From: Physcomitrium patens
Taxonomy: Eukaryota > Streptophyta > Bryopsida > Funariales > Funariaceae
DNA: 64,000 bases
Assembly: GCF_000002425.4 (NCBI RefSeq)
Contig: NC_037254.1
Span: 10,067,411-10,131,410, forward strand
Reading direction: 5' to 3'
The notes below the pieces were generated by a model, which was not told where the DNA came from, made no database searches, and saw only the letters and a program-made list of their open reading frames with translations. Shown piece by piece: positions 2,808-58,379 of the stretch; positions within the stretch are counted from its first letter, which is position 1, and each line of letters opens with the position of its first letter. The position numbers were made by a program, and so were the translations under genes.

Positions 2808-3939
2808 TGTCGTATTATGTACTTTCCTGCTCAAGAACGCACCAGGCGTTTGGCTGTAGAAGGTAGTATGGAGATTCGCTAATATTCAAGCAGTCTATCG
2901 GTTTTTGATTGTTGAAATATAAACGATTATAAGAATATACCATAAATCTATACAGATGTCCTTCGACTGCTTGCCAAAATCTTTTTTGTCCTAACCGATA
3001 AGTCTCTAGATGTTATAGAGAACCCCGAACAACCTAATTTGCTAATCTCCGATACCGCTTTATACTCACGACCTTGTATCCACTGACTGTCTTGTTAGAT
3101 TAACCCCAAAATTTTTATTCACTCCGCATATTCAATCCTATAGACACCCTTTTAATTCTTCAACCACAGACGTAACTTCGATTTTACAAAACAGTCAAGA
3201 GTATTCACACCTACTTCATTAAAACCCCAATTCACTAGTACAACATTGACTTCAGCAACGATTGCCTAAGTCTTCTCAAAATCCTATGAAGAAAAAAAAT
3301 CCCAATTCTCTATCATTTTTCCCCGAAGCATGAAGCTAGCTCTCCGACCCTTGAAAAAAAAACTATGATTCTCCCTTCTTTTCATTTCTTAATCTATCCT
3401 CCCCTTTAACCCTAATTCTTCCTCTTTCAAATCCTAGCCTCTGAATTTCTTCAATCTTCTATCTTGGATCCGGAATTGGCTCTGCCGTCCGAGCTTTCTC
3501 CCCCATTTTTACCTTTAAGAGATCCATTTACCTAAAAGACGTTTCCGAAACGGCACAAAGAATGGAACAGCCTGAAACGGAATTGGAGCCTCGTAATTGG
3601 ACCGCATTGGGTTGCCTGATCAAGTCAGGTCTCATATTGGCTAAGAATCCCGTAGTAAGACCTAGATGTTCCCGTAATTGGGTCAAATTGGTCCATCGCG
3701 TCAGGCTCGCTCAGTCATCAATTTAGTCCTTTCGATTCTGTTCACTCCTACTATTAGACTCAAACGGAGCATTTCGTTACTGGTAAGTATGCCCTGACCG
3801 ACTGTGATGGGGTGTCTGAATTGGTCCCTGAATATTGGCACTGAAATGGATCGTTGCTCCCAATATTCGAGGTAATTGAATATTAATAAAAGTCCCCTTT
3901 CTTTATATTTTTATAATATACTCGTATTACAATATGACA
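2808..3939 (-). repeat. A2 3' LTR (1132 bp)
   Basis: It starts TGTCGTATTATG and ends CAATATGACA on the plus strand. It has the same length as the right LTR and shares with it the lack of the internal duplication seen in A1. Confidence 0.92.
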
Positions 3940-3951
3940 TCGACCCCCTCT
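3940..3951 (-). promoter_or_regulatory. A2 polypurine tract
   Basis: Minus-strand AGAGGGGGTCGA directly abuts the 3' LTR. This is the expected plus-strand primer position. The decayed A3 copy keeps agaggaagtaga at the same place (29385-29396). Confidence 0.75.
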
Positions 3952-4001
3952 GAACTTGTGCATCCTCCGGTATGCACCAATTTATCCAATTGCTATTTGA
4001 T

Positions 4002-5260
4002 TTATAATATAATCTCTATGTCTTTGTCCAATTCATCTTCGTCACCTTCATTATCTAAATCACTTTTATCTTCTTGCTGCGGAATCTCTATACCTTCATT
4101 AAGGTCTTCCATATTCATCTCCACATGTCTTCGTTTAAATATTTTTACTTGCTTCCCTACAATTGGTATTTTCAATTTTGTACCATCTAACTCCCGTAAT
4201 GAGTAAATCGCATTATCATGAATAGTTGTTACTACATATGGTCCAAACCAACGTTTTAAAAACTTCCATAAAGTGTTATATTGGTTGTCAAGACTACTAT
4301 CATAAATAAGTACCCAATCACCTTCTTCAATTGCTTTAGGTCTCAATCGATGTCGCTTATCAAATCGCACCTTGTTTTGTAACCTTGCTCTTTTTAACCT
4401 TTGCAATGCTATCTGCACATCTTCCAATCTTTGCTCCAATTGTCAAATCCTAATAGCCAGAAGTTCTTCTCTTCTCAATCCATCTTCCCATGGTAGCATA
4501 CTCCAAGTAAGTACCTTTTTTTCAATCGGCATAATTGGTTTTCGACTTGTCATAAGTTCTACTAGCATATATCTTGTCACCGAACTATGTGTTGTTCGAT
4601 CAGCCCATAATACAAATGACAAAAGCCATGGCCACTCTCTAACTTTTCTATTACAAGCTTTAACTAATGCTTTTACAATTGGCGAGTGACTACATTCGCT
4701 TTTTGCATTCCCTTCCGAATTATAAGCAGTAGTCAGTGATAGTTTAACTCCACATCTTTCTAAGAACTTACGAGCTTCTTGTGCATTTAATTCTCCACGA
4801 TCTGCAGTGATTTTCCTACGCATCCGTAGCGACAAATGACATCTTCAAGCAAAAACCTACAAATCTCCTCTGTAGATTTTATCCTCAATGTTCTTTATTC
4901 TACTTGATTTGATAAATCTTCACGAGCTACGATCAAATATCTCATCTGCCATAATCCAACTGGCATAATAACCAAATCAACAACCCATTTAAAATGAATA
5001 GCTAGAGGATACGTAGGATGAAGACCATCTCAATGTCGGATATTAGAATACGATTGACAGATTTCACATGACTCTACAAATGAGAGCACATCTCGATACA
5101 TATTTTTCCACCAATATCGTTCCTTGAGTTTAGCAAAAGTAGCCCAGATTCCTCTATGCCCTGCCCATAAACTATCATGAAACTCCTTTAATAATTTTAG
5201 TTTTTCTTCCCTTTTGCCTATCACTCGTTGTGGCATCCCAATTCCTTTCTTCAGTCTCTT
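4002..5260 (-). pseudogene. A2 integrase part of pol
   Basis: The order on the minus strand is as follows. First a zinc-binding HHCC region (5030-5236: HRG..ATFAKLKERYWW…VESCEICQSY). Next the catalytic core (4443-4830), with the second acidic residue in TADRGE and the Glu in AKSECSHSPIVKALVKA. Last a C-terminal DNA-binding segment (4002-4439: RFDKRHRLRPKAIEEGDWVLIYD…KRWFGPYVVTTIHDNAIYSLREL). The protein ends in an acidic tail and has no chromodomain. Breaks are a stop near 5258, a stop near 5028, a 1-nt frameshift near 4815 and a stop at 4440. INT would insert element cDNA into the genome. The identification is firm from motif order. Confidence 0.85.
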
Positions 5261-7502
5261 TCATAAGAATCCATCTCGAAGCAAAAATCCATATGCTTTT
5301 TTTCTTATTTGTTTGAATTTTTCTATAGACCAATTTCCTTGCTTAGTCAAGGCATTCAAATAATGATCAATATCCAATAATTCTCCTTCATAAGATTCTT
5401 CAAGAAATAGCTTGTCTTCTCTGTTGAGAATTGATATTGAATAGAATTTCAATCCGACGTCATCAATGTCTTCAACCATTTCGTCCTCCTTTTCGTATCT
5501 TGCTCGAGATAACATGTCTCCTACTAAATTGTCCTTCCCAGTAACATGCTTAAATTCTGGATTTAGTGACTTAATAAAAGCAATCCATCTCAACATTGCA
5601 ATATCTGGCGTTGAACAGTTAGTAATCATTCCGAGCAATGGCAAGTAATCTGTTTCAATTACTACTACTGCCCCAATCAAATAGTCCTTTTCAGCTTTCA
5701 TAGCCAAAACGACTCCCCAAAGTTCTCTTTTGACTTGCGAATATGCACGCTGACGAATACTTAAAACTTTAGCCCCAAATCGAACTGCAAATCTACTCCC
5801 ATTCGAATCATCTTGACCCACCGCCCATCCAACGGCAATTGGACTAGCGTCTACAGTAAGAATCACTGGTCTATTGCACTTATAATCAACCTTCCTCAAT
5901 ATTGGAGGTGACATCAATAATTTCTTCAATCTTTGCATTGCCTGAATATGCCTTTCTTTCCATTCAAATCGGTAACCCTTACGTAACAGTTCATATAATG
6001 GATCTGCTATGTGAGCAAAATGAGGGATCCAGATTCGATAAAATACACATGCACCCAAAAACCTGCGAACCTCTGTTAAAGAACCACAATCCTCTTTCAT
6101 CCTTCTAATTGCATCAACTTTAGTCAGATCAGGTTTTCTTCCGTAAGATCCATATAAATGTCCAATAATCACAACCTCTTGTACTCCAAATACAAACTTC
6201 ATATCCGATAATGTAAGATGAACTTCTCGAAGTCGAGTTAAAATCTTTTCACAATCTTGTATATGATCAACAATATTTTTGCAACATCCCCTCTTATCTA
6301 AAGTTTCATCCTTGACTCCTTCTTTGCACCCTTTTATAGGAACATCATCCAGAAAAGGCATAGTCTTCTCCGGAATAAAATCTCTCAATACCTTATTCAT
6401 TCCAACCATCATATGCGCAACTGAGTTGGTCGCGCCTTGAAGAAGAGTGCACATTCTAACCAATCCAAGTGGTGTCCTCATTGTTGTCATATCTCTACTT
6501 CCTTTGGCAAGTTGAAATTGATCATAACCTGAATATAAGTCACCCATTGAATAGATCGCCCTTCTTGCAAACGCCTTAGCAAATTCATCCACAATAAATC
6601 CAATTCCTGCATTCCTGACAGTTACTACATTCACCGGTTAAATATCTTGAATCAACCGTAGTGACCCATTCTTCTTAGGTACCGTAAACCATCGATTAGA
6701 ATACGACGCAAATGACGGTTCCAATATTTTTATCTTCATCATTTCTTTTAATACTTCTACCAATTTAGGTAAATGTGCCCTCGGTACTAGAATTGGTCTT
6801 AGATTCCAAGGTACATGCGGTACAGTGAAGATAACCATATGTGTTATAATATTCGGATCTACACACTCAATTTCATAAGATTCGAAGGCAAACGATCTAC
6901 CTTGTTTAGCCAACATCTTTTTGAAGTAAGTAATTTCCTCCGGCAATAAAGAACCATCAGAACCAATCTTCAATTCTTCAAAAGTCTCTTTAGTAAACTG
7001 ATGTCCAATTCTCATTGGATCTCTTAAACTTGCTTCTTTTGATGCTTCTCCCATTTGTTCCTTAGAATCTTCTGGTAATGGTCCGGCAACAGGCTTTACT
7101 TTCTTATATGCCATTTTATATCTCGTCTCTACTGTGACTTCTGGTGCTTGAAAAGATTCAAGTATGGTATAAACCTCTCTCGAATGAATCTCAACAATCT
7201 TATCATTATCCCCTAACCCAATAGATGTAATCAATTCCAATGAATCTTCCAGCCCATTTTCTTCATAAACACCCAAAATCCTCTCATCATCTTGCAATGT
7301 ACCTATCTTGCATAATTGTCCTTCAATATCATATAATCTTTTTCTTTCTTTTCTTTTAAAATCATCAACTTTCTTATACATAATATTTCCATTCTCCAAA
7401 ATACCAATAAAACTCGCATCAAAGGCACCTTTATCTAGCGAGAGTACCTCCTCTTTTGTACCTCCATAATCTCACTTTATAGTGGTACCTTTCCAAAATC
7501 CT
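5261..7502 (-). pseudogene. A2 reverse transcriptase-RNase H part of pol
   Basis: An N-terminal linker (7399-6638) ends in the RT fingers (PWNLRPILVPRAHLPKLVEVL, RWFTVPKKNGSLRLIQDI). A stop follows at 6635-6637. The rest of RT then continues in frame (GDLYSGYDQFQLA, TPLGLVRMCTLLQGATNSVAHM). The active site reads FLDDVPIKG rather than the usual YLDDILI of plant Gypsy. RNase H follows (TVDASPIAVGWAVGQDD, KRELWGVVLAMKA, VIETDYLPLLGMI, GKDNLVGDMLSRARY). The frame changes by -1 relative to gag-PR at about 7496. I recall the DDVP-type RT with GQDD RNase H mostly from fungi and non-seed plants. Confidence 0.85.
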
Positions 7503-9849
7503 TAAATCCTTCAACAATCTTTGGCAATGGTTTCTCCTTCAACCTATCTCGATTCCGTTCATGGTTAGGAGGTACTGTTAGAAATTGTACAGCTTTCCTC
7601 CCATCTTTGCTACATACCCTTGCATAAGTAGAACCATCATCAAGTACTTTTGTTTCCATCCATGTTGCCGTAATATAAGGTTGTTCTAAAATCAATGGAT
7701 AAGACGTTGTATCTTGAACAAAGAAATGTTGCTCCGTCGCAACATCCCCAATCCGAATTTTGACATCTGGACAAGCTCCATATAATTCGCCTCGTGTGTT
7801 ATTAGTTGCTCGTATTGCCCATCCATGTTCCATATCAATTGGCCATTTTTGCTTCTTATAAAGATCTTTAGACATGAGATTTATTTCAGAACCATGGTCC
7901 ACCAAAGCAACTATTGGTTCTTCTATATCTCCTACCTTCACCAATACCTCAGTAGTTGCCCTTGCCCAATGCTTTCGAGTATAATGGCTCAAAGTTTCCA
8001 TTTCCTTATCACTATAATCTTCGAAATGTACTCGTTGATTATACCCATTCTTTTCATTTGTTGGTTGTTTGTAACCAATATCAACCTCTTCTTCATCTTT
8101 ATATATTCTTGCATCAATAGCATGACTCATTCCAGTTTTATCCATTAATTGCCTCTTTCGCTTAATGCTGTCAATGATAACATCATGAAACTCCTTCTTT
8201 GCAATTCCCAAAACTTCTTTCAATGTGAATTCTACCTTAGCATTTAATATACATTCTTCCAACACTCCTTTCAAATTTGTTGCCGCTTCAATGTCAGAAA
8301 GTAGCTTATAAGCAATTGATTTGCCCTTATCTTTTGTTTCCCTTGTTTTTTCTTCTAATGATGCTGAGGTATCCTTTACATGCAATTCTTGTAAAGTTGC
8401 CTTTCGAGCTTTGTCTCCTCGAGTTTGCGTCTTAGAAGAATTTTCTTCTCTTGTATCATCAAAATTTCCTCGTCTCTTTTCTTCCATCAAAGCTTCATGT
8501 TGGCTTTTAGCAATATATGCATGAACTGAAAGAGATTCATCAGGATCCTCCCAACCTGTTGCACCTCGTATTGTAGCTGCAGTCCTCAATAACGCTTCTC
8601 GAGGTAATTTTCCTTCTTGCGTTGTAGAAATGGCAGAAGCCCAAAACTCGCTAGTTTTCATACTTCCACGAAGGTCATCATCTATTCTAGCACCATAACT
8701 TGCACTTTCTCATGCTGCTATTTCATGCTCTTTTAAATAATCTTGAACCAATGCTCTCATTCCTCTCTTGCCAAAATTGGTTTGAAGAAGATCCTCCCTA
8801 TCTTTGAATGCTATCTTTCCATCTTTCCAGCAAATAATTCTTTGCCATATCATATTATTAAATTCATTGCAATCTTTTTTAGTGTGTGAAGCGTCATCAC
8901 ATCAAATGCATCTTTGTACATATCCTTGTTTTGAAACATTCTTCAAATTATTTGTAGAAGTATTCTCTTCAAGTCTTACCAATTTGATTTGAAGATCTCG
9001 CAATCCTCATATTATTTCTTCCATCCCTATATCTGCTTTCTTTGATAAGGATGTCGAAGGTTGAACTGTAGGCATTGTTGGTGGTGTTGTACGTACTGGA
9101 GCTTTGGGTGCTTATACTGTTTTCGAAATATTACTCCTATCCTTCCTCCTTTCTCTTTTTTTAAGCAATCCCACAGCATCTTCAACGTTCTTCCACTTTG
9201 TTGTCAATCCTTCATCTTCTTCTTTGTCTTCAAGAAGGAGTTCTAATTTTCCTTGTAATTCTCCATCAGGAGCTTGAAGAAATAGATTAACTTTGTTTGG
9301 CTCCAATGTCAATTTTTCTACCTTCAATAATTGAGAGTACTGCCTCTCAAATTCCGTTAGTAGCTCTGTTGCTTGTATATTCTTATTAGGCCGTTCAATC
9401 CATTCCAGAAACAACTTCTTAATAACGCGATCAACATCTTCCAAGAAATATTCATCTTTCAATGCATGTGAAAAAACCTCCCATGAATTCCCATAACAAT
9501 CCATAATCAATGTAATATGGTCTCTTATCTCCGGTATCGTGGCAAGTCCAAATAATTCAACCATTTTCTTCTCAGAAACCTGATTTAATTCCATTTCAAG
9601 AACATAACATCTTAAATACCTTGAAATATTCCTTCCATCAAATTGATCAATTTTATTGACCACTGCTTGCAATGCTTTGGTTGCCAAAGCTTCTTTTCAA
9701 TCAATGCTTTGTTGTTACTGCATTGATAATGAGAAAGCTTAAAACATACTAGCAATAGATGGATCCATGTGCATACCTTGTCGTTTAGAAGAACCTCTGC
9801 CAGAAACTCCTCCCAAAGATCCTTCAAAATTTTTATTTTTGTTCTCCAT
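7477..9849 (-). pseudogene. A2 gag-protease ORF
   Basis: The ATG is at 9847-9849 (MENKNKNFEG). One frame runs through gag, a CCHC knuckle (about 8870-8915) and the protease to 7477. The intact parts are 9112-9687 and 7477-8661. Stops interrupt at about 9738, 9110, 9010, 8910 and 8712. The aspartic protease region is at about 7850-7960, with a DHG motif (VALVDHGSEINLMSKDLYKKQKWP) in place of the usual DTG/DSG. Protease would mature the polyprotein. Because gag and PR share one frame here and RT does not, the frameshift point lies between PR and RT, unlike families B and C. Confidence 0.8.
7496..7502 (-). promoter_or_regulatory. Candidate -1 frameshift heptamer, A2
   Basis: Minus-strand GGATTTT sits just before the gag-PR stop. 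The RT frame is open in -1 from a few codons upstream. The same heptamer is a known slippery site in red clover necrotic mosaic virus (from memory). A3 also keeps GGATTTT at 12935-12941, but with a 1-nt length difference after it. A simple mutation cannot be excluded. Confidence 0.3.
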
Positions 9850-9898
9850 AAAAATAAAAATAAAATCAAACAAAATTCAATATCTTCCACCTTAAGCT

Positions 9899-9916
9899 TT
9901 CACGTCGAATTCACCA
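9899..9916 (-). promoter_or_regulatory. A2 primer-binding site (tRNA-Trp type)
   Basis: It has the same 18-nt site and 4-nt spacer from the LTR as A1. It reads TGGTGAATTCGACGTGAA, with two C-to-T changes. Confidence 0.65.
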
Positions 9917-9920
9917 CTTA

Positions 9921-11052
9921 TGTCGTATTACGTGCTTTCCTGCTTGAGAACGCATCGGACATTTGGCTGTAGAAGGTAGTATGGAGATTCACTAATATTC
10001 AAGCAGTCTATCAGTTTTTGATTGTTGAAATATAAACGATTATAAGAATATACTATAAATCTATACAGATGTCCTTCGACTGCTTGCCAAAATCTTTTTT
10101 GTCCCAGTCGGTAAGTCTCTAGACGTTACAGAGAACCTCGAACAACCCAAACTGCTAATCTTCGATACCACTTTATACTCATGATCTTATATCCACTGAC
10201 TGTCTTGTTAGATTAACCCAATAAATTTCATTCACTCGGCATATTCAATCCTATAGACACCCTTTTAATTCTTCAACCACAGACGTAACTTCGATTTCAC
10301 AAAACAGTCAAGAGTATTCACACCCACTTCATTAAAATCCCGATTCACTAAGACAACACTGACTTTCAACAATGATTGTCTCAGTCTTCCCAAAACCCTA
10401 TGAAGAAAAAAACCCCAATTCTCTATCTTTTTTCCCCGAAGCATGAAGCTAGCTCTCCGACCCTTGAAAAAAAAACTCTGATTCTCTCCTCTTTTCATTT
10501 CTTAACCTATCCTCCCCTTTAACCCTAATTCTTCCTCTTTCAAACCCTAGCCTCTGAATTTCTTCAATCTTCCATCTTGGATCCGAAATTGGCTCTACCA
10601 TCCGAGCTTTCTCCCCCATTTTTACCTTTAAGAGATCCATTTACCTAAAAGACGTTCCCGAAACGGCACAAAGAATGGAACAGCCTGAAACGGAATTGGA
10701 GCCTCGTAATTAGACCGCATTGGATTGCCCGACCAAGTCAGGTCTCATATTGGCTAAGAGGCCCGTAGTAAGACCTGGATGTTCCCGTAATTGGGTCAAA
10801 TTGGTCCATCGCATCAGGCTCGCTCAGTCATCGATTTAGTCCTTTCGATTCTGTTGAATCCCACTATTAGACTCAAACGGAGCATTTCGTTACTGGTAAG
10901 TATGCCCTGACCGACTGTGACGAGGTGTCTGAATTGGCCCTTGAATATTGGCACTGAAATGGATCGTTGCTCCCAATATTCGAGGTAACTGAATATTAAT
11001 AAAAGTCCCCTTTCTTTATATTTTTATGGTATACTCGTGTTACAACACGACA
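9921..11052 (-). repeat. A2 5' LTR (1132 bp)
   Basis: It starts TGTCGTATTACG and ends TTACAACACGACA on the plus strand. It aligns to 2808-3939 without large gaps. Most differences seen by eye are C/T or G/A. Confidence 0.92.
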
Positions 11053-16049: not shown

Positions 16050-16601
16050 TGTCAAGGACAAAGACTCGATGAGGGAAAATATACACAAAAAGGCTATCTT
16101 GATATAATAAGTCAAAATATAAACAAGTAGGTATATTAAAAGGAAACTGGAATGGCTATTGCCACAAGACAAGAAACTAAAGACTCTTGAACCTGGACTA
16201 GAAGCAAGAAAGGAGTTGACAAGAGTGAAGAAGCCTTCACTCTTGTCTCTATATATACTATCTAACTAGGGGCTACGTGGCGACGTCCTATAGGACCTCC
16301 AATATGTGTTTACTTTGTAGGACACATGCCTTGACTTACAAGGCAAGTTTTTCTACGTGTGGGCCACATAGTTAGCTTAATCTTCAAGTTAACAACATGT
16401 GTGGCACATGGCCAACTTGTTGACCACGTTTCTAATCCAAAAAGTCAATTAAAGACACCTATGAAGTCAAAGCAGTGTCTAGGAAGTTTCTAGGAAGCTT
16501 CTATATTAAATATTATAGAATTAACTTACTTTTATCTACTTTTACTTACTTCTACCTATTCCTATATGTAATTATTAGCTTACATGATTATGGACGTGAC
16601 A
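16050..16601 (-). repeat. B1 3' LTR (552 bp)
   Basis: It starts TGTCAAGGACAAAG and ends TATGGACGTGACA on the plus strand. It has the same length as 28412-28963 and is nearly identical to it. Confidence 0.95.
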
Positions 16602-16848: not shown

Positions 16849-17320
16849 TGTCACGGACACAAAATACAGACTTGAAATCTAACAAGAAGTTCAAGAAGAA
16901 GTGGCAGAACTAGATTAAACAGATGAGTACAAGAACAACACCAGAAAGGTGAGCTAGAACTCCAAGAGATGTGTTGTCGAGACTGAAGAACTCTTCAGCC
17001 TCGACTCCTATATATACTACTGGCCTATGGTTCTAAGGAAGCGCATCAAGAAGCTTCCCAAGAACTATGAAGCTTCTCGAGCAACTATCCAAGAGCTAGG
17101 AAGCTTCTCAAGTAACTTCCTAGAATCTACTAGAATATTATAAGAATCTTCTAGAGCCTTCTAAGGGAATCTTTAAGGAATCTTCAAAGAATCTTTAGGG
17201 AATCTTTGAAGAATATTCTAAGAGAATATTCAAGGAATCTTCTGGAAGTTTCTAGAGACTTCTTTCTAGAAGGTTCTAGAAACTTGTCTCTAGAAAGGTC
17301 TAAGGACTATGTTCCTAACA
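16849..17320 (-). repeat. C1 3' LTR (472 bp)
   Basis: It runs TGTCACGGACAC to TTCCTAACA on the plus strand. It is the same length as the right LTR. It holds short repeats of the AGAATCTT / TTCTAGA type at about 17100-17300. Confidence 0.93.
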
Positions 17321-17863: not shown

Positions 17864-20800
17864 CTATCGTTGAACCGGCTTGGGTTTCTCAGGATATCGT
17901 CGATGAAACTCCTGTACCTTTTGCGGCGCATTCGCGAAATTTTTGGTCGGCTCCCTTGTTCGTTCATTAATATCGTAACCGCTCCAATGCACAAAGTATT
18001 CTAATTTACTCCGACTTTGCCGTGAATCTAGGACCTTTTCCACCTCGTATTCTTTGTAGTTCTCTATTTCTATGCTAGGTGGTGGACATTGTACTCTTCC
18101 AGGAAAAGACGATTCTCGATAAGGCTCCAACAAAGAAACATGAAAGACAGGATGTACCTTCATAGTAGCTGGTAACTCCAAACGATACGCTACAGGATTG
18201 ATCTGCTTCTGGATAACAAATGGTCCCAATCTTCAATAGTTCAATTTCTCACATGGCTGCTTGGTCTTAATATTTCGTCGAAGCAGCCAAACTTTGTCTC
18301 CAATCGTGAATTTAGGTGCCTGATTCCGAAATTTGTCCGTGGACGCCTTGTAAGATTCTTGGGCAGTTTGCAATTGAAGCTTCAATATAGTTTATAGTTG
18401 CGAAAGCTCCTTCACCAATCCTTCAGCTGCCGGATTATTAATCGTTGACGAACTCCATAAGTCAAGCTTCGGATGGTATCCATAATTGGAAAAGAATGGC
18501 GTTTGTTGAGTTGACGCATGAAGGGTGTTGTTATATGCAAACTCGACTAGCAGTAGATATGCGGCCCAATCATCTTGTTGATAGTTGATGGTGCAACGTA
18601 AATATTGCTCTAAAACTTGATTCACTCGATCTATTTGGCCGTCCGTTTGAGAATGAAATGCTGAAGAAAGCTTGATATCCACCTTCAATATCTCAAAAAG
18701 AGATTTCCAAAACTTTGACACAAACTGGGTTCCTCGATCCGATACGATATCATCTGGTAGACCATGATATCGATACAAATTATCAAGAAAGAGTCTTGCT
18801 GTATCTTTGCTTGACGATGTCTTCTTACAAGGGACAAAATATGCCATCTTTGTAAGCCGATCTACGACAACAAAAATGCTGTCAAATGAATTCGATGGTG
18901 GTAGATCCGTAATAAAGTCCATGGAAACCGAAGACCATGGTCGGCGCGGAATAGGCAATGGCTGTAGAAGTCCATAAGGCCGATGTCGAGGGTTTTTGGA
19001 TCTTGAACAAATGTCACAAGATACAACAAAATCTTTCACATCCTTCCATATTTGAGGCCACCAGAAATCGCGGGAAATAAGTTCCAAGGTCTTATTGAAT
19101 CCAAAATGTCCTACAGCTGGAAAGTCATGACAAGATTGAAGAACTCGGAGTCGTGTTGGCCCTTTTGGGATATACAACCGCTCTTCGAAATATACTAGAT
19201 CTCCTTCCATCTTGAATTTATCATCACTAGCATGTTGCTTGATATCAAGGGCTAGAGAATCTTCAATGGTTGCGGCCCGTACCTGGTCGAGGAAGTCAGC
19301 ATCAATTGGTACAATAGCTGCGTTGAATCGAAATTTCTCTGGCTTCAACAATGTCGTGCACTGTTGATCAAATGCTGCATCTCCAGCCTTTGGCGCGAGA
19401 TATGATCTCCTTGATAATGCATCGGACAACCCTTGTTGCTTCCCAGGCCGATAAGTAATAACAAAGTCAAACCTGGATAGCGACATACTCCACCAAGCTT
19501 GATGCCGATTCAAAACCCGAGCCGACATAAAATACTCCAAATTCTTGTGATCCGTATATACGGTCACTGGATGTGCAGTTCCTTCGAGAAAGTGGTGCCA
19601 CTCTTGGAAAGAATTTACTATAGCAAGGAGTTCCTTATCGTGGATCTCATAGTTGATCTCAGCAGCAGAGAATTTTCGAGAATAGAACGCAACTGGATGG
19701 AGCTTCTCATCTACGCCCATCTGTGAAAGTACAACTCCCAAAGGAAAATCCGAAGCATTTGTCTCCAAATAAAAGGCCTTTATAAAGTCCGGATGTACCA
19801 AGATTGGAGCTGTAGTAAATACCATCTTCAAATCTTGGAATGCTTTTTCTGCGATAGGTCCCCATTCGAGCTTGTCCTTGCACGTTAACCGAGTGAGGGG
19901 GGCAGCAACTTGAGAATAATTCTTGATGAAGATCCGATAGTAGTTAGCAAATCCAAGAAAACATTGTACGTCCCTAACCGTCTTCGAAACTTCCCAAGAC
20001 ATGATTGCTTCCACCTTCTTTGGATCCATCTTCAATCCTTCCGTAGTCGCGATGAATCCCAAAAATTCCATCTCAGTTTGGTGAAATAAGCACTTCTCCA
20101 ATTTGGCATAGAGTCCTCGCTCCCGTAGTTTTTTGAGTACCAGACGAACGTGCTTCTCATGTTCTTCTTCATTCTTAGAAAATATCAAAATATCATCTAG
20201 ATAGATGACAACAAAATCGTCTAGATGCTCTCGAAAGATGTCATTCATCATGTGTTGAAAGACCGCTGGAGCATTAGTAAGACCAAATGGCATGACATTG
20301 TATTCAAAATGGCCATACCTTGTTCGAAAAGCTGTCTTCCATTCATCTCCTTCCTTGATTCGCACAAGGTTGTAAGCTCCCCTTAGGTCAATCTTTGTAA
20401 AGATCCTTGCACGCCCAAGTTGTTCTAGAAGACCAGAGATCAAAGGCAGTGGATAGCGATTCTTTTTTGTCACCTTGTTGAGACCTCGATAGTCCACGCA
20501 CATCCGTAGTGAGCCATCTTTCTTCTTCACAAATAAGATTGGTGCCCCAGCTGGCGACTTCGAATGACGGATGAAGTTCTTGGCTAGATTCTCGTCAATG
20601 TACTTCCGCAACTCAGTCAACTCCGTCTGCGACAAATTGTAGATTGGTCCAAAAGGTGGTTGTGCTCCTTCTTGCAATTCAATGATTCAGTCATAGGGTC
20701 GATGCTCTGGCAGCATATCAGCATTCTTCTTTTCAAAGACATCTTTGAATTCTTCATACTGCTTTGGAATAACCAAAGTCGGAGTTGCATCTTCTCGAGT

Positions 20801-22504: not shown

Positions 22505-22625
22505 AAACACTAAACGATTTCAGTTTTAGAGGAGGGTAATCCGCAACTTCTAAAAATGCCTCAATGCTTTCGAGAAGAGGGGTAATCCGCACTCTATCAA
22601 GAAGGCAAAGCTCTGAAATCGATGT
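22505..22625 (-). repeat. C1 leader unit 1: three-arm fold
   Basis: An outer stem CGATTTCAG (22515-22523) / CTGAAATCG (22613-22621) closes two hairpins. The first has TTTTAGA-type arms. Both present GGTAATCCGC (plus strand) in the loop. Relative to the B1 unit the outer stem differs at two base pairs, and both are compensated. Confidence 0.7.
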
Positions 22626-22667: not shown

Positions 22668-22775
22668 TTAATATCAGTCCAAGAGAGGGTAATCCGCAAC
22701 CCTTAGAATGCTCGAGTATCTCCAAAGAAAGGGGTAGTCCACTCTCTGCCTCAAAGAACTAAGCTCTGATATTGT
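22668..22775 (-). repeat. C1 leader unit 2: three-arm fold
   Basis: The outer stem is AATATCAG (22670-22677) / CTGATATT (22766-22773). The inner hairpins again carry GGTAATCCGC and the variant GGTAGTCCAC. It is the middle copy of the tandem triplication. Confidence 0.7.
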
Positions 22776-22782
22776 GATTGAG

Positions 22783-22890
22783 AAAATATCAGTTTAGAGG
22801 AAGGTAATCCGCAACCCCTAAAGCGCTAGAATACCTTCAAGAAGAGGGGTAATCCGCTCTCAAACAAGAAGGATTCAGCTCTGATATTAA
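22783..22890 (-). repeat. C1 leader unit 3: three-arm fold, next to the 5' LTR
   Basis: The outer stem is AATATCAG (22785-22792) / CTGATATT (22881-22888). Inner hairpins show GGTAATCCGC twice. The 3' arm, read on the minus strand, contains TATCAGAGC. That equals the core of the usual tRNA-iMet primer site but lacks its leading TGG. Confidence 0.7.
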
Positions 22891-22899
22891 GATAAAGGT

Positions 22900-22910
22900 A
22901 GTCTCGACAA
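22900..22910 (-). promoter_or_regulatory. C1 candidate self-priming PBS
   Basis: Minus-strand TTGTCGAGACT begins 2 nt after the 5' LTR. It is the exact complement of AGTCTCGACAA inside the LTR (23038-23048), which lies 32 nt downstream of the TATA box and is the predicted transcript start. Confidence 0.7.
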
Positions 22911-22912
22911 AC

Positions 22913-23384
22913 TGTCACGGACACAAAATACAGACTTGAAATCTAACAAGAAGTTCAAGAAGAAGTGGCAGAACTAGATTAAATAGATGAGTACAAGAAC
23001 AACACCAGAAAGGTGAGCTAGAACTCCAAGAGATGTGTTGTCGAGACTGAAAAACTCTTCAGCCTCGACTCCTATATATACTACTGGCCTATGGTTCTAA
23101 GGAAGTGCATCAAGAAGCTTCCCAAGAACTATGAAGCTTCTCGAGCAACTACCCAAGAGCTAGGAAGCTTCTCAAGTAACTTCCTAGAATCTACTAGAAT
23201 ATTATAAGAATCTTCTAGAGCCTTCTAAGGGAATCTTTAGAGAATCTTCAAATAATCTTTAGGGAATCTTTGAAGAATATTCTAAGAGAATATTTAAGGA
23301 ATCTTCTGGAAGTTTCTAGAGACTTCTTTCTAGAAGGTTCTAAAAACTTGTCTCTAGAAAGGTCTAAGGACTATGTCCCTAATA
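22913..23384 (-). repeat. C1 5' LTR (472 bp)
   Basis: It runs TGTCACGGACAC to TCCCTAATA on the plus strand (terminal CA mutated to TA). The minus-strand promoter inside has TATATATA at 23073-23080 and a predicted start at about 23048. Confidence 0.93.
23038..23080 (-). promoter_or_regulatory. C1 LTR promoter: TATA box and start region
   Basis: On the minus strand TATATATA is followed after 32 nt by AGTCTCGACAA. An imperfect hairpin (GTCGAGGCTGAA / TTCAGTCTCGAC) spans the interval. Confidence 0.65.
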
Positions 23385-23700: not shown

Positions 23701-26700
23701 TCATCTTGGTTTCGATGGATGTCGTTGATGAAAAACTTTGACTTTAGCTGATGCATTTGCTAGATTCCTGAATGGCTCCCATGTGCATTCACTAATATCA
23801 TATCCGCGCCAATGAACAAGATATTCCAGCTTATTTTGGCGCCACCTTGAGTCTAATATCTCTTCCACCTCAAATTCTTCATTATTATCTACTTCTATAG
23901 GAAGCGGTAGCATTTGTCTTCTTCCTTGTATATCCACTGTCTTATATGGTTCAAGAAGAGACACGTGGAATACAAGATGGATCTTCATTGACTCCGGTAG
24001 ATGTAACCGATATGCAACTGGGTTGATCTGTTCAGAAACAGAAAAGGGGCCAAGCCTACGATAGTCCAACTTGTCACAAGGTCGAGTAGTCTTGATATTG
24101 CGACGAAGTAGCCATACCTTATCACCCACGTTGAGTTGTGGTTGCTCCTTACGATATAGATCTGCGTTTATCTTTTGTCGTTCTTGAGCTTCCTTCAATT
24201 GTGTCTTCATTATTGCATGTAACTCTGACAACCGATTTGCCATATCTTCTGCTGCAGGATTATCAACTTTTGAAAAATCAAAAGTATCAAGTCGTGGATG
24301 ATAGCCATAATTGGCAAAGAAAGGTGTTTGTTGCGTGGAAGAATGTACCGTATTATTATAAGCAAACTCTGCCAATGGTAGAAGGGTTGTCCAATCATCT
24401 TGTTGGTAGTTGATAGTACACCTTAAATATTGCTCCAAGACTTGGTTTACGCGCTTTGTTTGTCCATCAGTTTGAAGATGGAAAGCCGAAGATAGCTTTA
24501 TGTCCACTTTTAAAATCTTGAAAAGGGTCCTCCAAAATCTTGACACAAATTGAGTTCCCCTATCCGATATGATATCTTTAGGTAATCCATGATAGCAATA
24601 GATATTATCAATGAAAAGCTTAGCTGTTTCTTCACCTGTAATAGATTTTGTATATGGCACAAAATGTGCCATCTTGGTGAAACGATCTACTATCACAAAT
24701 ATAGAATCATAAGATCTTGAACTTGGAAGATCTGTGATGAAATCCATAGAAACAGAAGACCATGGTTGTTCTGGTATAGGTAATGGCTGAAGAAGTCCGT
24801 AAGGTCGATGACGAGGAATTTTTGAGCTTGAACAAATATCACATGATTGTACAAAGTCTTTGACTGACTTCCACATTTGTGGCCACCAAAAATCTCTTGA
24901 TATGAGTTCCAAAGTCTTATTATATCCAAAGTGCCCTGTTGCTAGAAAGTCATGACGTGCTTGAAGAACACGTAAACGTGCTTCTCCTTCTGGAACATAT
25001 AGGCGTCCTTCAAAATATAATAGATTATTCTTGAACTCGAACTTAGAAGGATCATGAGACTTCGAAGAATTATTCTCGATATCATAAACAAGAGGGTCTG
25101 AGGACATACTGGACTGGATTTGCTTGAGAAAAGTTGAATCAACAGTCAATGTTGATTTCATTACTCGGAGATGAAATTGCTCCGGTTTCAAGAGGACCGT
25201 TCTTTGTTGCTCAAAAGCTGCATCTCCTTCTTTTGGTGCAAAATAAGAACGTCTAGATAGGGCATCAGACAAACCTTGTTGTTTTCCTGGTCGATAAGTG
25301 ATAATGAACTCGAATCTTGACAAAGACATCCTCCAACGAACTTGACGACGATTCAACACGCGTGCTGACATGAAATACTCGAGGTTCTTGTGATCTATAT
25401 ACACAGTGACTGGACTAGAAGCACCTTCTAGATAATGACGCCATTCTTGAAAGGAATCCACGATCGCAAGAAGTTCTTTATCGTGGATCTCATAATTGAT
25501 CTCGGCTGCTGAGAATTTTCTTGAATGAAAAGCTATCGGATGAAGTTTGTCATCTGTTTCCATTTGTGATAAAACTGCACCCAAGGCTAAATCTGATGCA
25601 TCTGTTTCCATAAAAAATGCCTTGGAAAAGTCAACATGATATAAGACTGGTGCAGAGACAAACGATGTCTTCAAAGCTTCAAATGCTACTTCCGCTTCTT
25701 GATTCCATTGGAATTTATCTTTACTAGTCAAGCGTGTAAGTGGAGCTGCAACTCATGAAAAATCTTTGATAAAGATCCGATAATAATTGGCAAATCCCAA
25801 GAAACATTGAACATCTCTTACTGTCCTTGGAATCTTCCAATTCATGATTGTTTGGACTTTCTTAGAATCCATCATGAGACCATCATTTGAAATGATGTAT
25901 CCTAAAAAGTCAACTTGAGTAGTGTGAAATACACACTTTTCCATCTTGGCGTACAATCCTGCATCTCTAAGTTTTTGTAATACTTGATGAACATGTATTT
26001 CATGTTCTTCGACGTTCTTAGAATAGATCAGGATATCGTCTAGATAGCAGACGACAAAATTGTCTAAGAATTCACGAAATACATCATTCATGAGATGTTG
26101 AAAAGCAGCTGGTGCATTCGTGAGTCCAAAGGGCATGACATTATATTCGAAATGTCCATACCTGGTTCGAAACGCAGTCTTCCATTCATCTCCTTCTTTG
26201 ATCCGTACTAGATTATATGCTCCTCTTAGATCTATTTTTGTATAGATCTTAGCTTGATTCAACTGGTCAAGGAGTCCTGATATCAAAGGTAATGGATACC
26301 TGTTCTTGATTGTGATCTTATTGAGTCCTCGATAATCAACACACATTCGTAAAGATCCATCTTTTTTCTTTACAAATAGAATTGGAGCTCCTATTGGAGA
26401 TTTTAAATGGCGTATGAAATTCTTCGCTAAATTCTCGTCAATATATGTCTTGAGTTCAGCCATCTCATCTTGCGATAAACTGTAAATTGGTCCAAATGGT
26501 GGCTGAGTTCCTTCCTTGAGGTCGATTGAACAATCATATGGGCGATGCTCAGGAAGAATATCTGCATTCTTTTTCTCAAAAACGTCTTGATACTCCTGAT
26601 ATTGACTTGGAATGCTACTTGAAGTCTTTACGTTTTCAGAAATAGGTGCAGCATAAATAGCAAAAGTTGATCCTTCTTTTGCTGCGTGTATAAATGCTTT

Positions 26701-27222
26701 TGCACCTATCAGTACGGGTTTTACTATACTAGACTTATAATTTTTTACTTGGTTGGTAGAACTATTAATAACACTTTGGGAAAAGTCAAGTTTACGCAAA
26801 TTCCAATCTATTCGAGGGTTATATTTTTCTAGCCAGGATAAACCTAAAATAACTGGATTGGACGGGGATTTAATTATGTTAAAAGCTATGTAGCTATCAT
26901 GACCGTCTATTGTTACTTTTATAGGATGAGTTTCATGAGTGACATCTCCAGAAGACAAGGGACGACCATCTATGACTTCTACATGTACTGGTTTAGGTTT
27001 CTGTACAAAGGGTATTTTACGACTTTTAGCAAATTGTTCATCTAAAAAACATGCTGAGGCTCCCGAATCTAATAAAGGAGAGGCTTTGTAATTCTTAGGT
27101 CCTAAATATAAGTCTATTATAAAACAAGGAGAGGGTTCTGAGGAGAAGATAGGACCTTCATTAGGAATTGTACAAGGTTCCAGCTGCACGGTCCCTATTG
27201 TAGCTGGACGAATCCGTTTTCC
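23701..27222 (-). pseudogene. B1 pol: protease, RT, RNase H, integrase, chromodomain
   Basis: This is a single frame broken by one TGA near 25750. It contains the protease (LLDSGASACFLDEQFAKS), then RT (KKDGSLRMCVDYRGLNKI, GHFEYNVMPFGLTNAPAA, YLDDILIYSK at about 26040). RNase H follows (METDASDLALGAVLSQ; YIDHKNLEYFM). INT has a HFGYNKTLELI…CDICSSSK zinc finger, a core with SMDFITDLP, SDRGTQFVSRFW and VNQVLEQYLR, and LGPFSVSEQINPVAYRL. It ends in a chromodomain (FEVEEILDSRWRQNKLEYL…YDISECTWEP). It overlaps gag in the -1 frame and has the full length expected for a chromovirus. A small ORF follows. Confidence 0.94.
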
Positions 27223-28282: not shown

Positions 28283-28391
28283 CAATATCAGTTTAGAAGT
28301 GGGTAATCCGCAAACTTCTAATACGCTTATGTCTTGTCAAGAGAAAGGGGTAATCCACTCTTACTCAAGAAAAAACAAAGCTCTGATATTG
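28283..28391 (-). promoter_or_regulatory. B1 leader three-arm fold
   Basis: The outer stem is CAATATCAG (28283-28291) / CTGATATTG (28383-28391), 9 bp and perfect. Hairpin 1 is TTAGAAGT (28293-28300) / ACTTCTAA (28314-28321), 8 bp and perfect. Hairpin 2 is AAGAG (28339-28343) / CTCTT (28358-28362). Both loops hold GGTAATCC (GGATTACC in the RNA). It has counterparts in C1 (three copies), B4 and B6. Confidence 0.75.
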
Positions 28392-28398
28392 TAAGTGC

Positions 28399-28409
28399 AC
28401 TCTTGTCAA
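28399..28409 (-). promoter_or_regulatory. B1 candidate self-priming PBS
   Basis: Minus-strand TTGACAAGAGT begins 2 nt after the 5' LTR. It is the exact complement of ACTCTTGTCAA in the LTR (28578-28588), 31 nt downstream of TATATATA. The match extends to 12 nt. Confidence 0.7.
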
Positions 28410-28411
28410 TC

Positions 28412-28963
28412 TATCAAGGACAAATACTCGATGAGGGAAAATATACACAAAAAGGCTATCTCGATATAATAAGTCAAAATATAAACAAGTAGGTATATTA
28501 AAAGGAAACTGGAATGGCTATTGCCACAAGACAAGAAACTAAAGACTCTTGAACCTGGACTAGAAGCAAGAAAGGAGTTGACAAGAGTGAAGAAGGCTTC
28601 ACTCTTGTCTCTATATATACTATCTAACTAGGGGCTACGTGGCGACGTTCTATAGGACCTCCAATATGTGTTTACTTTATAGGACACATGCCTTGACTTA
28701 CAAGGCAAGTTTTTCTACGTGTGGGCCACATAGTTAGCTTAATCTTCAAGCTAACAACATGTGTGGCACATGGCCAACTTGTTGACCACGTTTCTAATCC
28801 AAAAAGTCAATTAAAGACACCTATGAAGTCAAAGCAGCGTCTAGGAAGTTTCTAGGAAGCTTCTATATTAAATATTATAGAATTAACTTACTTTTATCTA
28901 CTTTTACTTACTTCTACCTATTCCTATATGTAATTATTAGCTTACATGATTATGGCCGTGACA
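28412..28963 (-). repeat. B1 5' LTR (552 bp)
   Basis: It runs TATCAAGGACAA (TG mutated to TA) to GGCCGTGACA on the plus strand. It is followed by the duplication GGTTA. Confidence 0.95.
28578..28619 (-). promoter_or_regulatory. B1 LTR promoter: TATA box and start region
   Basis: On the minus strand TATATATA (28612-28619) is followed by a perfect 13-bp inverted repeat, GACAAGAGTGAAG / CTTCACTCTTGTC. The predicted transcript start ACTCTTGTCAA lies 31 nt downstream of the TATA box. Confidence 0.65.
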
Positions 28964-31439: not shown

Positions 31440-32060
31440 TTATTGAGGCCTAAATTTATTGTAGGAATTATTTAGAATTGATTAGAATTTGATTAGGATT
31501 TAGGATTTGATTTAGGATTTGATTTAATTAGAATTTAGTTAAAATTTATTTAAGATTTTATTAAAATTCAATTAGGATTTGATTAGGATTTATTTAGGAT
31601 TTGATTAGAATTTGATTAGGATTTGATTAGATTTTGTCTAAGATTTTTTTAGGATTTGGTTAGAATTTTTTTAGGATTTGATTAAGATTTATGTAGGATT
31701 TATTTAGGATTTGATTAAGGTTTGATTACAGTTTGATTAGGATTTGTCTAAGATTCTATTAGAATTTGGTTAGGATTTGGTTATAATTTGTTTAAGATTA
31801 TTTTAGTATTTGATTAGAATTTGACTAGGATTTATTTAGGATTTGTTTGGAGTTTGATTGGGACTTATTTAAGATTTGTCTAGGATTTGATTAGGATTTA
31901 TTTAGGATTTGATTAGAATTTTATTAGTATTTTTTTGGAATTTGATTATAAATTGTCTATGATTTGATTAGAGTCATTTAGAATTTGAGTAAAGTTTGAC
32001 TAAGATTTGACTAGGATTTGACTAAGGTTTAATTAGGTTTTGATTAAGATTTAATTAAAA
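31440..32060 (+). repeat. Degenerate GATTTGATTAG-type tandem repeat array
   Basis: About 50 degenerate units of 10-17 nt follow the pattern ATTTGATTAGGATTTATTTAGG. A purine-rich/T-rich strand bias persists through the array. No coding potential is seen. Some units read TTTAGGA, close to the plant telomere unit TTTAGGG, but none is exact. Confidence 0.75.
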
Positions 32061-37330: not shown

Positions 37331-37546
37331 GCTATGATAACACTTAAGGAAGAAAAAATGTCTAATATTGCTTAAGCCAAATAGAAGAAAAGACTTAAAA
37401 ATAAAGAAAGTATTAAAGATAATATTAATTTAAAAGAGGGTAATTGAAAACTTCTAATACACTTATGTCTTATCAAGACAAAGGAATAATCTATTCTTAA
37501 TCAAGAAAAGATAAAACTTTAATATTACAAGTATATTCTTGTAATT

Positions 37547-55014: not shown

Positions 55015-55122
55015 CAATATCAGTTTTAAAGAAGGTAATCTGCTACTTCTAATATGCTTATATTTCATCATGAAAAAAGGGTAATCGACTCTTAATCAAG
55101 ACAAAATAAATCTTTGATATTG
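55015..55122 (-). promoter_or_regulatory. B4 leader three-arm fold, decayed
   Basis: The outer arms are CAATATCAG (55015-55023) and TTGATATTG (55114-55122). The inner GGTAATC motifs persist (GGTAATCTGC, GGTAATCGAC). Confidence 0.6.
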
Positions 55123-55129
55123 TAAGTAT

Positions 55130-55140
55130 ATTCTTGTCAA
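55130..55140 (-). promoter_or_regulatory. B4 candidate self-priming PBS
   Basis: Plus-strand ATTCTTGTCAA ends 2 nt before the LTR. It is one transition away from the B1 site. Confidence 0.55.
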
Positions 55141-58253: not shown

Positions 58254-58264
58254 TTGATAAGAAT
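58254..58264 (+). promoter_or_regulatory. B6 candidate self-priming PBS
   Basis: TTGATAAGAAT starts 2 nt after the LTR. It is two transitions from TTGACAAGAGT of B1. Confidence 0.55.
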
Positions 58265-58271
58265 ACACCTA

Positions 58272-58379
58272 CAATATTAGACCTTTGTCTAATCTTGATT
58301 AAGAGAGGGTTACCCCTTTTTCTTGATAAGATATAAGCATATTAGAAGTTGCAGATTACCTTCTTCTAAACTGATATTG
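58272..58379 (+). promoter_or_regulatory. B6 leader three-arm fold
   Basis: The outer stem is CAATATTAG (58272-58280) / CTGATATTG (58371-58379), where the one change still allows a G-U pair. The inner hairpin is TTAGAAG (58342-58348) / CTTCTAA (58363-58369), with GCAGATTACC in the loop. The second hairpin holds GGGTTACCCC. Confidence 0.65.

Follow-up and report, generated by a model that had tools for sequence, protein, structure and literature searches.

Two LTR retrotransposons lie nested on the minus strand of the moss DNA analysed here (the window, a single stretch of 64 kb), with C1 inserted inside B1, and the locus raises the question of how such elements begin reverse transcription. 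An earlier note on this DNA had pointed out that an 11-mer situated 2 nt after each 5′ LTR exactly complements an 11-mer within that LTR, and that this LTR partner lies 31 or 32 nt downstream of a TATA box. Both statements are confirmed by coordinates in B1 and C1 (Table 1). The note had taken these features as signs of self-priming as found in Tf1/sushi elements, a proposal that appears well supported by the sharp 11-nt limits of the complementarity, the TATA spacing, the LTR ends placed by TSDs and the coupled changes between families. B1 and C1 are thus very probably Tf1/sushi-group chromoviruses (the plant ‘Tcn1 clade’) that would prime reverse transcription with nt 1-11 of their own RNA.

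Two nested elements and their 11-nt pairs

The terminal CA of the B1 5′ LTR has become TA in this copy (the end reads TTGATA, 28412), and the 5′ LTR of C1 carries TA in place of its initial TG and ends in GTGACA (22913). The flanks of C1, GAACA and AAACA, agree at four of five positions as judged by eye, and the end of this element was not placed by the TSD script. Pfam matches in the downstream B1 frame to SH3_Tf2-1 (PF24626, E = 2.1e-20) and to a chromodomain (PF00385, E = 1.9e-15) indicate a C-terminal chromodomain integrase. No chromodomain was found in the C1 frame examined, which ends short of that region. A reverse transcriptase (RT) segment at 25756-26559 was considered as a part of C1 and rejected, because C1 sits nested within B1 and the segment belongs to the latter.

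Table 1. Positions of the B1 and C1 features and of related copies in the window
Feature	Position	Strand	Basis or remark
B1 5′ LTR (TGTCAC...TTGATA)	28412..28963	-	98.5% identity to 16050-16601
B1 3′ LTR (TGTCAC...TTGACA), then TSD TAACC	16050..16601	-	exact 5-bp TSD TAACC/TAACC
TATATATA box, B1 5′ LTR	28612..28619	-	sequence
B1 hairpin left arm GACAAGAGTGAAG, second copy of primer complement, upstream of predicted start	28597..28609	-	13 bp
B1 self-primer ACTCTTGTCAA, predicted RNA nt 1-11 (28588 = +1), also in hairpin right arm	28578..28588	-	complementarity, TATA spacing
B1 primer-binding site TTGACAAGAGT, 2 nt past LTR	28399..28409	-	exact complement of 28578-28588; 11 pairs in R-to-PBS MFE
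B1 leader unit; TATCAGAGC at 28380-28388 in first strand	28283..28391	-	alignment, pair counts, covariance model
B1 ORF: protease and reverse transcriptase	25756..27189	-	Pfam RVP_2, RVT_1
B1 ORF: RNase H, integrase, SH3_Tf2-1, chromodomain	23704..25731	-	Pfam PF17917, PF17921, PF00665, PF24626, PF00385
C1 5′ LTR, nested in B1	22913..23384	-	LTR pair 96.9% identical
C1 3′ LTR	16849..17320	-	LTR pair comparison
TATATATA box, C1 5′ LTR	23073..23080	-	sequence
C1 hairpin left arm GTCGAGGCTGAA	23058..23069	-	12 bp, one G-U as RNA
C1 self-primer AGTCTCGACAA, predicted RNA nt 1-11 (23048 = +1)	23038..23048	-	exact complementarity
C1 primer-binding site TTGTCGAGACT, 2 nt past LTR	22900..22910	-	exact complement of 23038-23048; 11 pairs in MFE
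C1 leader unit 1; TATCAGAGC at 22878-22886	22784..22889	-	pair counts, covariance model
C1 leader unit 2	22669..22774	-	pair counts, covariance model
C1 leader unit 3; P1 altered to GATTTCAG/CTGAAATC, compensated	22515..22621	-	pair counts, covariance model
C1 ORF: RT, RNase H, integrase	18395..20677	-	Pfam
Leader unit, old B-like copy	37420..37527	-	covariance model
Decayed B copy, primer site TTGACAAGAAT (one transition); leader unit 55015-55122	55130..55140	-	
B copy, primer site TTGATAAGAAT (two transitions); leader unit 58272-58379	58254..58264	+	

Counted from the first T of the TATATATA box to the first base of the LTR partner, the spacing is 31 nt in B1 (28619 to 28588) and 32 nt in C1 (23080 to 23048). 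The predicted primers of the two families differ at RNA positions 2, 6 and 8 (3 of 11), and every change is compensated in the site. This bears out the earlier claim that the primer site and the predicted RNA 5′ end have changed together between families. The duplexes that each primer forms with its own site, at -14.4 (B) and -16.2 (C) kcal/mol, are far stronger than the cross-family duplexes (-6.5 and -3.2 kcal/mol), and the B and C priming systems would therefore be nearly orthogonal. All 41 R-to-PBS RNAs that were folded contain the primer:site helix in their MFE structure, with 9-11 pairs.

With at most one mismatch, TTGACAAGAGT occurs 10 times in the window versus 2.08 expected and TTGTCGAGACT four times versus 0.70 expected, repeat copies being counted in both cases. 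Copies B4 and B6 were said to keep the site with one or two transitions, and two B copies with such changes are indeed present (Table 1). The window also holds an unrelated LTR element (2808-11052, minus strand; LTRs 93% identical) that has a TGG 4 nt past its LTR and a self-complement of at most 8/11, and that looks tRNA-primed. It served as a control, the best LTR complement at its junction being only 8/11.

Occurrence in the genome and edges of the complementarity

Further copies were sought in the whole genome (470,438,890 bases in 101 contigs) by two routes, neither of which selected for the 11-mer. For the first sample, 40 chromodomain-anchored loci were drawn from 150 places among the matches listed (15,300 candidates). 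The pair is present in 32 of these loci, in 29 cases within the chromodomain-bearing element and in three within an opposite-strand neighbour; pairs on the opposite strand (L022, L034, L048 and a second row of L019) were assigned to the neighbouring element. The 32 tabulated rows, which represent 31 loci, comprise 23 pairs at 11/11 and nine at 10/11, and the exact pair of L023 was added to the count outside the table. No pair was found in the remaining eight loci (L011, L015, L029, L030, L040, L041, L046 and L047), where the junction lies beyond the piece or one partner was not found.

The second sample consisted of 40 pieces out of 97 places that a Cryptococcus RT had matched (45,613 candidates), and was scanned for a complement of at least 10/11 below a TATATA with no family sequence imposed. 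Thirty-nine pieces contain a pair, 37 of them exact and two at 10/11, and one (L060) has none. The R starts are B-type in 33 pieces, all with a TATA spacing of 31, and C-type in six, all with a spacing of 32. Because copies within each family are close relatives, the sampled pairs are not independent events. Seven additional B rows (L001-L006 and L008) were chosen by an exact-site pattern and are uninformative on frequency; L007 has no pair, and L003 and L070 are one copy.

When two of 43 rows with spurious second anchors (L025 and L049, 6/11) were left out, the own matches of the 41 rows totalled 442, versus a mean of 390 and a maximum of 417 in 2000 shuffles, a comparison that mainly measures coupling between the families. 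Neither the 40 chromodomain-anchored loci nor the 40 RT-anchored ones revealed a primer class beyond B and C, and one compensated pair within a family was found, in L020. With two primer classes and close relatives within each, the independent part of the covariation that the earlier note had envisaged across many copies is limited. A tblastn search for relatives in viral contigs confirmed none. The places found in the genome are on large contigs with numbers up to C27 and on C100 and C101, two contigs that carry closely spaced tRNAs, like organelle genomes.

The edges of the complementarity were examined in 37 of the 39 RT-anchored pairs, those passing a stricter pattern. In B (n = 31), each of positions 1-11 is complementary in 30-31 rows, position 12 in none and position -1 in three; in C (n = 6), the corresponding values are 5-6, none and three. 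Most positions outside these edges match rarely or never, and positions -3 and 16 match in all rows via a constant base. Complementarity confined to nt 1-11, with 0/37 rows matching at nt 12, is the pattern expected from an RNase H cut between nt 11 and 12. A cut after nt 11 would account for the stop at position 12, and transcription start at +1 for the stop at position -1; the predicted starts at 28588 and 23048 (minus strand) fit the 5′ edge.

TSDs were sought as a guide to the LTR ends in 22 cases, 18 of which have an LTR pair, and several TG...CA/TA end placements were tried around the alignment ends. An exact 5-bp TSD accompanies 11 of the 18 pairs and shows that 2 nt separate the LTR end from the 11-mer. 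The LTR terminates in ...TGACA (...TGGCA in L026), and in the 5′ copy there follow 2 nt and the 11-mer, the sequence being mostly GT or GA and then TTG. Two 5′ junctions were read separately, that of L028, where the script was off by one base, and that of B1, where the script row gives the junction of C1. The 3′ LTR ends at TGACA or TGGCA in 16/18 pairs; L017 (a partial pair) and L021, whose alignment ends 2 nt beyond GACA, were misplaced by the script. Retroviruses lose 2 nt at integration, and the same loss here would put the cDNA terminus at the 11-mer.

A tRNA site starting with TGG at the LTR end, the mark of the tRNA-primed plant chromoviruses Tekay, CRM, Reina and Galadriel, is absent from these elements, and TGG occurs only in subfamily C″, from 23 nt past the LTR. 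Since tRNA 3′ ends are CCA, priming by a tRNA at the 11-mer was rejected: the site begins TTG, which cannot pair with CCA, and it changes together with the LTR. On the same grounds, a host RNA is unlikely to be the primer. As a separate observation, the LTRs of B and C both end in TGTC-N3-GACA, and in many of the R-to-PBS folds this sequence makes a small hairpin right next to the primer site. A parallel may exist with the U5-IR-like structure named in the title of Lin and Levin 1998.

A U3/R hairpin and a three-helix leader domain

Both elements contain a third copy of the 11-nt information. A left arm between the TATA box and the start pairs with TTC plus RNA nt 1-9, and the resulting hairpin, perfect or near-perfect, spans the U3/R border (28578-28609 in B1 and 23038-23069 in C1, both minus strand). 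At -20.3 kcal/mol in B1 and in C1, an energy as low as that of none of 300 shuffles, it is stronger than the primer duplex of either element. The 12-nt arm shows 12 matches in eight of the 41 rows, 11 in 19, 10 in nine, 9 in two and 8 in three. A match of at least 10/12 is therefore found in 36 rows and in two families, with 8-9 in the other five. Shuffled upstream sequence usually gives 6 matches, and reaches at least 10 in 16/8200 shuffles and at least 8 in about 12%.

The left arm is missing from the predicted RNA 5′ end, and the RNA 3′ end carries both arms. We hypothesize that the hairpin probably keeps the 3′ primer copy locked, leaving only the 5′-terminal copy to anneal. The hairpin may also have a promoter role.

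Directly past the primer site lies a leader unit of 104-110 nt with three helical arms, P1-P3. B has one such unit, C′ and C″ have two each, and C has three. Two of the arms are capped by GGATTACC-type loops. In 26 units hand-picked from 78 extracted rows (69 + 9, with several truncated duplicates among the 69 and several units per element), whose extraction patterns fixed the allowed forms of each P1 strand and so favour paired ends, although not their combinations, 95.6% of 804 cells pair, versus 42.7-53.4% when the strands are slid by 1-3 columns. Two-sided changes are seen in 15/31 pairs (shuffled mean 10.0, reached in 3/500), and cells with double changes number 70 versus 22.3 in shuffles, none of 500 reaching that value. 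The gain of further pair types is a weak measure (36 versus 33.1, 38/500). P1 itself takes the forms TATCAG/CTGATA, TATTGG/CCAATA and TTTCAG/CTGAAA.

A covariance model built from the alignment finds seven units in the window, and two of these were outside the building set (E = 2.7e-16 and 6.7e-14). The leader unit has no match in Rfam, as searched in the window at the gathering threshold. A guess from its place is that the domain is probably a packaging or assembly signal. The old B-like copies are poor in G + C, their leader units at 37420-37527 and 55015-55122 having 20% and 27% GC versus 37% in B1, which is the pattern expected from methylation-driven C-to-T decay.

The first strand of leader unit 1 carries a feature that was absent from the earlier note. 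It includes TATCAGAGC, 9 nt of the tRNA-iMet-type site TGGTATCAGAGC, and this stretch starts 23 nt beyond the LTR in B1 and 26 nt beyond it in C1. This tRNA-iMet-like sequence, found 23-27 nt past the LTR, is complete in one subfamily only: C″ reads TGGTATCAGAGC in all seven of its chromodomain-table rows and in five of six C-type RT-anchored rows, L080 having one mismatch. P1 of C″ remains paired, with one G-U, in the 26-unit alignment. The complete 12-nt site of C″, from 23 nt past the LTR and beside the self-primer site, was recorded in L032, L033, L035, L036, L038, L039, L048, L059, L071, L078, L082 and L088. The strand is apparently not used for cDNA initiation, since the LTR geometry counts against such a start. 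Its presence could reflect an ancestral relic, a part as structural cofactor, or chance.

Kinship, proposed priming route and rival explanations

The RT of B1 shares 64% identity with a Cryptococcus neoformans protein, the first fungal name among the matches listed. In an RT tree of 10 rows only, whose inner forks are partly open, B1 and C1 fall together with elements of fungi and amphibians, and a fork at 100/100 sets this group off from two Tanacetum rows, which align as two overlapping pieces and look chimeric. By RT and predicted priming, B and C are members of the Tf1/sushi group, plant Tcn1 clade, and B1 is so by its chromodomain as well. A record of the bacterium Kitasatospora herbaricolor contains an RT fragment 87% identical to that of B1, presumably a contaminant.

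Extracts from Neumann et al. 2019 (PMC6317226) describe the Tcn1 clade chromoviruses of moss and club-moss as related to Tf1/Sushi and mostly devoid of tRNA primer sites, and predict self-priming for most of them, not for other plant chromoviruses, and also for the TAR lineage of plant Ty1/copia. The suggestion that self-priming would be unusual or new in plants therefore does not stand, the mechanism being already in print as a prediction. It is probably not universal in the Tcn1 clade, given that the excerpted account of Selaginella SM-Tcn1 (Novikova et al., 2010; PMC2864245) gives that element neither tRNA priming nor self-priming. Our elements resemble the plant Tcn1 clade in host type, RT, chromodomain (B1), the lack of a TGG tRNA site at the LTR and predicted self-priming, but the excerpts of both accounts are without sharp 11-nt limits, U3/R hairpin, leader domain or tRNA-iMet-like overlap. 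In the parts of the wider literature covered by our search, likewise, we found no description of a U3/R hairpin repeating the primer complement, of a leader RNA domain of this kind, or of a tRNA-iMet-like overlap in the leader.

B1 and C1 share with Tf1 of Schizosaccharomyces pombe (also Tj1, Tosmo and Tcry1) the complementarity of RNA nt 1-11 to the PBS, a chromodomain integrase (seen in B1) and, by prediction, self-priming. The Tf1 mechanism has been proven by experiment, that of B1 and C1 being predicted. Excerpts from PMC7175516 state that the first 11 bases of Tf1 RNA complement the PBS and that RNase H cuts between 11 and 12, and record that self-priming was proposed for Tcn1 of C. neoformans, a further likeness beside the RT match given above, whose protein is not equated with Tcn1 itself. 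A fission-yeast genome paper (PMC10085805) has, in the extracts seen, a phylogeny with an element from P. patens and an account of a three-duplex ‘pretzel’; no convincing counterpart of the Tf1 flanking duplexes, in which PBS flanks pair with the LTR, was found when the MFE folds of B and C were inspected by eye. The TAR lineage (Houba, Osr-1) is similar in its predicted self-priming in plants, according to the excerpted literature, and differs in belonging to another superfamily. Extracts from PMC7466625 report that RLG1, a P. patens chromodomain gypsy family not equated here with B or C, is transcribed in protonema.

In the route that we favour, Pol II would start at the A located 31-32 nt after TATATATA, and the 5′ 11 nt of the RNA, as folding predicts, would fold back onto the 11-mer 2 nt past the 5′ LTR. 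By analogy with Tf1, RNase H would cut past nt 11, and the new 3′ end would be extended via the 2 extra nt into U5. LTR elements regenerate their PBS by copying the primer. Plus-strand strong-stop DNA would here copy the 11-nt primer, and each cycle would thereby rewrite the site to match the RNA 5′ end. With the RNA 5′ end as primer, such rewriting would let site and start change together with no double mutation needed, and would produce the sharp ends of complementarity observed at nt 1 and nt 11. If true, the same model predicts that the 10/11 cases are post-insertion mutations. Integrase would trim the 2 extra nt to give the ...TGACA ends that the TSDs reveal, while the U3/R hairpin might lock the 3′ primer copy, with the structured leader domain following immediately.

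Priming could instead be carried out by tRNA-iMet at TATCAGAGC or TGGTATCAGAGC, in which case the 11-mer pairing would be merely a leader fold. Copies of B, C and C′ do carry the former downstream of the 11-mer, mutated here and there, C″ carries the latter, and the string occurs alongside ‘tRNA’ in published papers. Such a start, however, would lengthen the LTR by about 21 nt, against the 16/18 pairs that end at TGACA or TGGCA, 11 with an exact TSD; B, C and C′ are without TGG, and TATCAG, as a strand of the covarying helix P1, has another role. We consider this explanation highly improbable. There is similarly very little to recommend the idea that the complementarity is a by-product of a start-site palindrome, a promoter or DNA-structure element unrelated to priming. 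An inverted repeat of 12-13 bp with the same sequence does occupy U3/R in B1 and C1 and extends to most of the rows compared, but this leaves unexplained why a third copy should sit exactly 2 nt beyond the LTR and cover no more than nt 1-11, whereas the palindrome continues across +1 into TTC.

Self-priming could also be the main route alongside tRNA binding at the tRNA-iMet-like site, the latter being left over from a tRNA-primed ancestor or helping in structure or packaging, but we regard this compromise as unlikely. The 9-mer persists at a near-constant place in all subfamilies seen, and its 12-nt completion in C″ includes some copies with long open frames. Nevertheless, P1 pairing by itself demands TATCAG, units 2 and 3 have diverged (TATTGG, TTTCAG), and it would not be surprising if one subfamily out of four had completed TGG by chance (about 4/64). 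Self-priming by RNA nt 1-11 thus remains our preferred reading. We add to it, tentatively and with some doubt, the possibility of a three-copy switch, wherein the same 11-nt information would serve as primer, as site and as the hairpin arm that hides the 3′ copy, so that only the true 5′ end starts cDNA. The repeated three-helix leader would then be coupled to priming, and its first strand, in imitating a tRNA-iMet site, would possibly be a relic of, or bridge from, tRNA priming.

In plants, as far as the excerpted reports go, self-priming rests on sequence prediction, and this moss genome supplies predictions that are exact and testable. A way for a self-primed element to distinguish its two RNA ends is suggested by the hairpin together with the covarying leader, and the tRNA-iMet-like strand bears on the relation between self-priming and tRNA priming. 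Apart from the elements discussed, the window contains a long tandem array at 31449-31998 with an 11-bp period (GATTTGATTAG-like), which yields 34 overlapping 231-nt copies spaced by 11.
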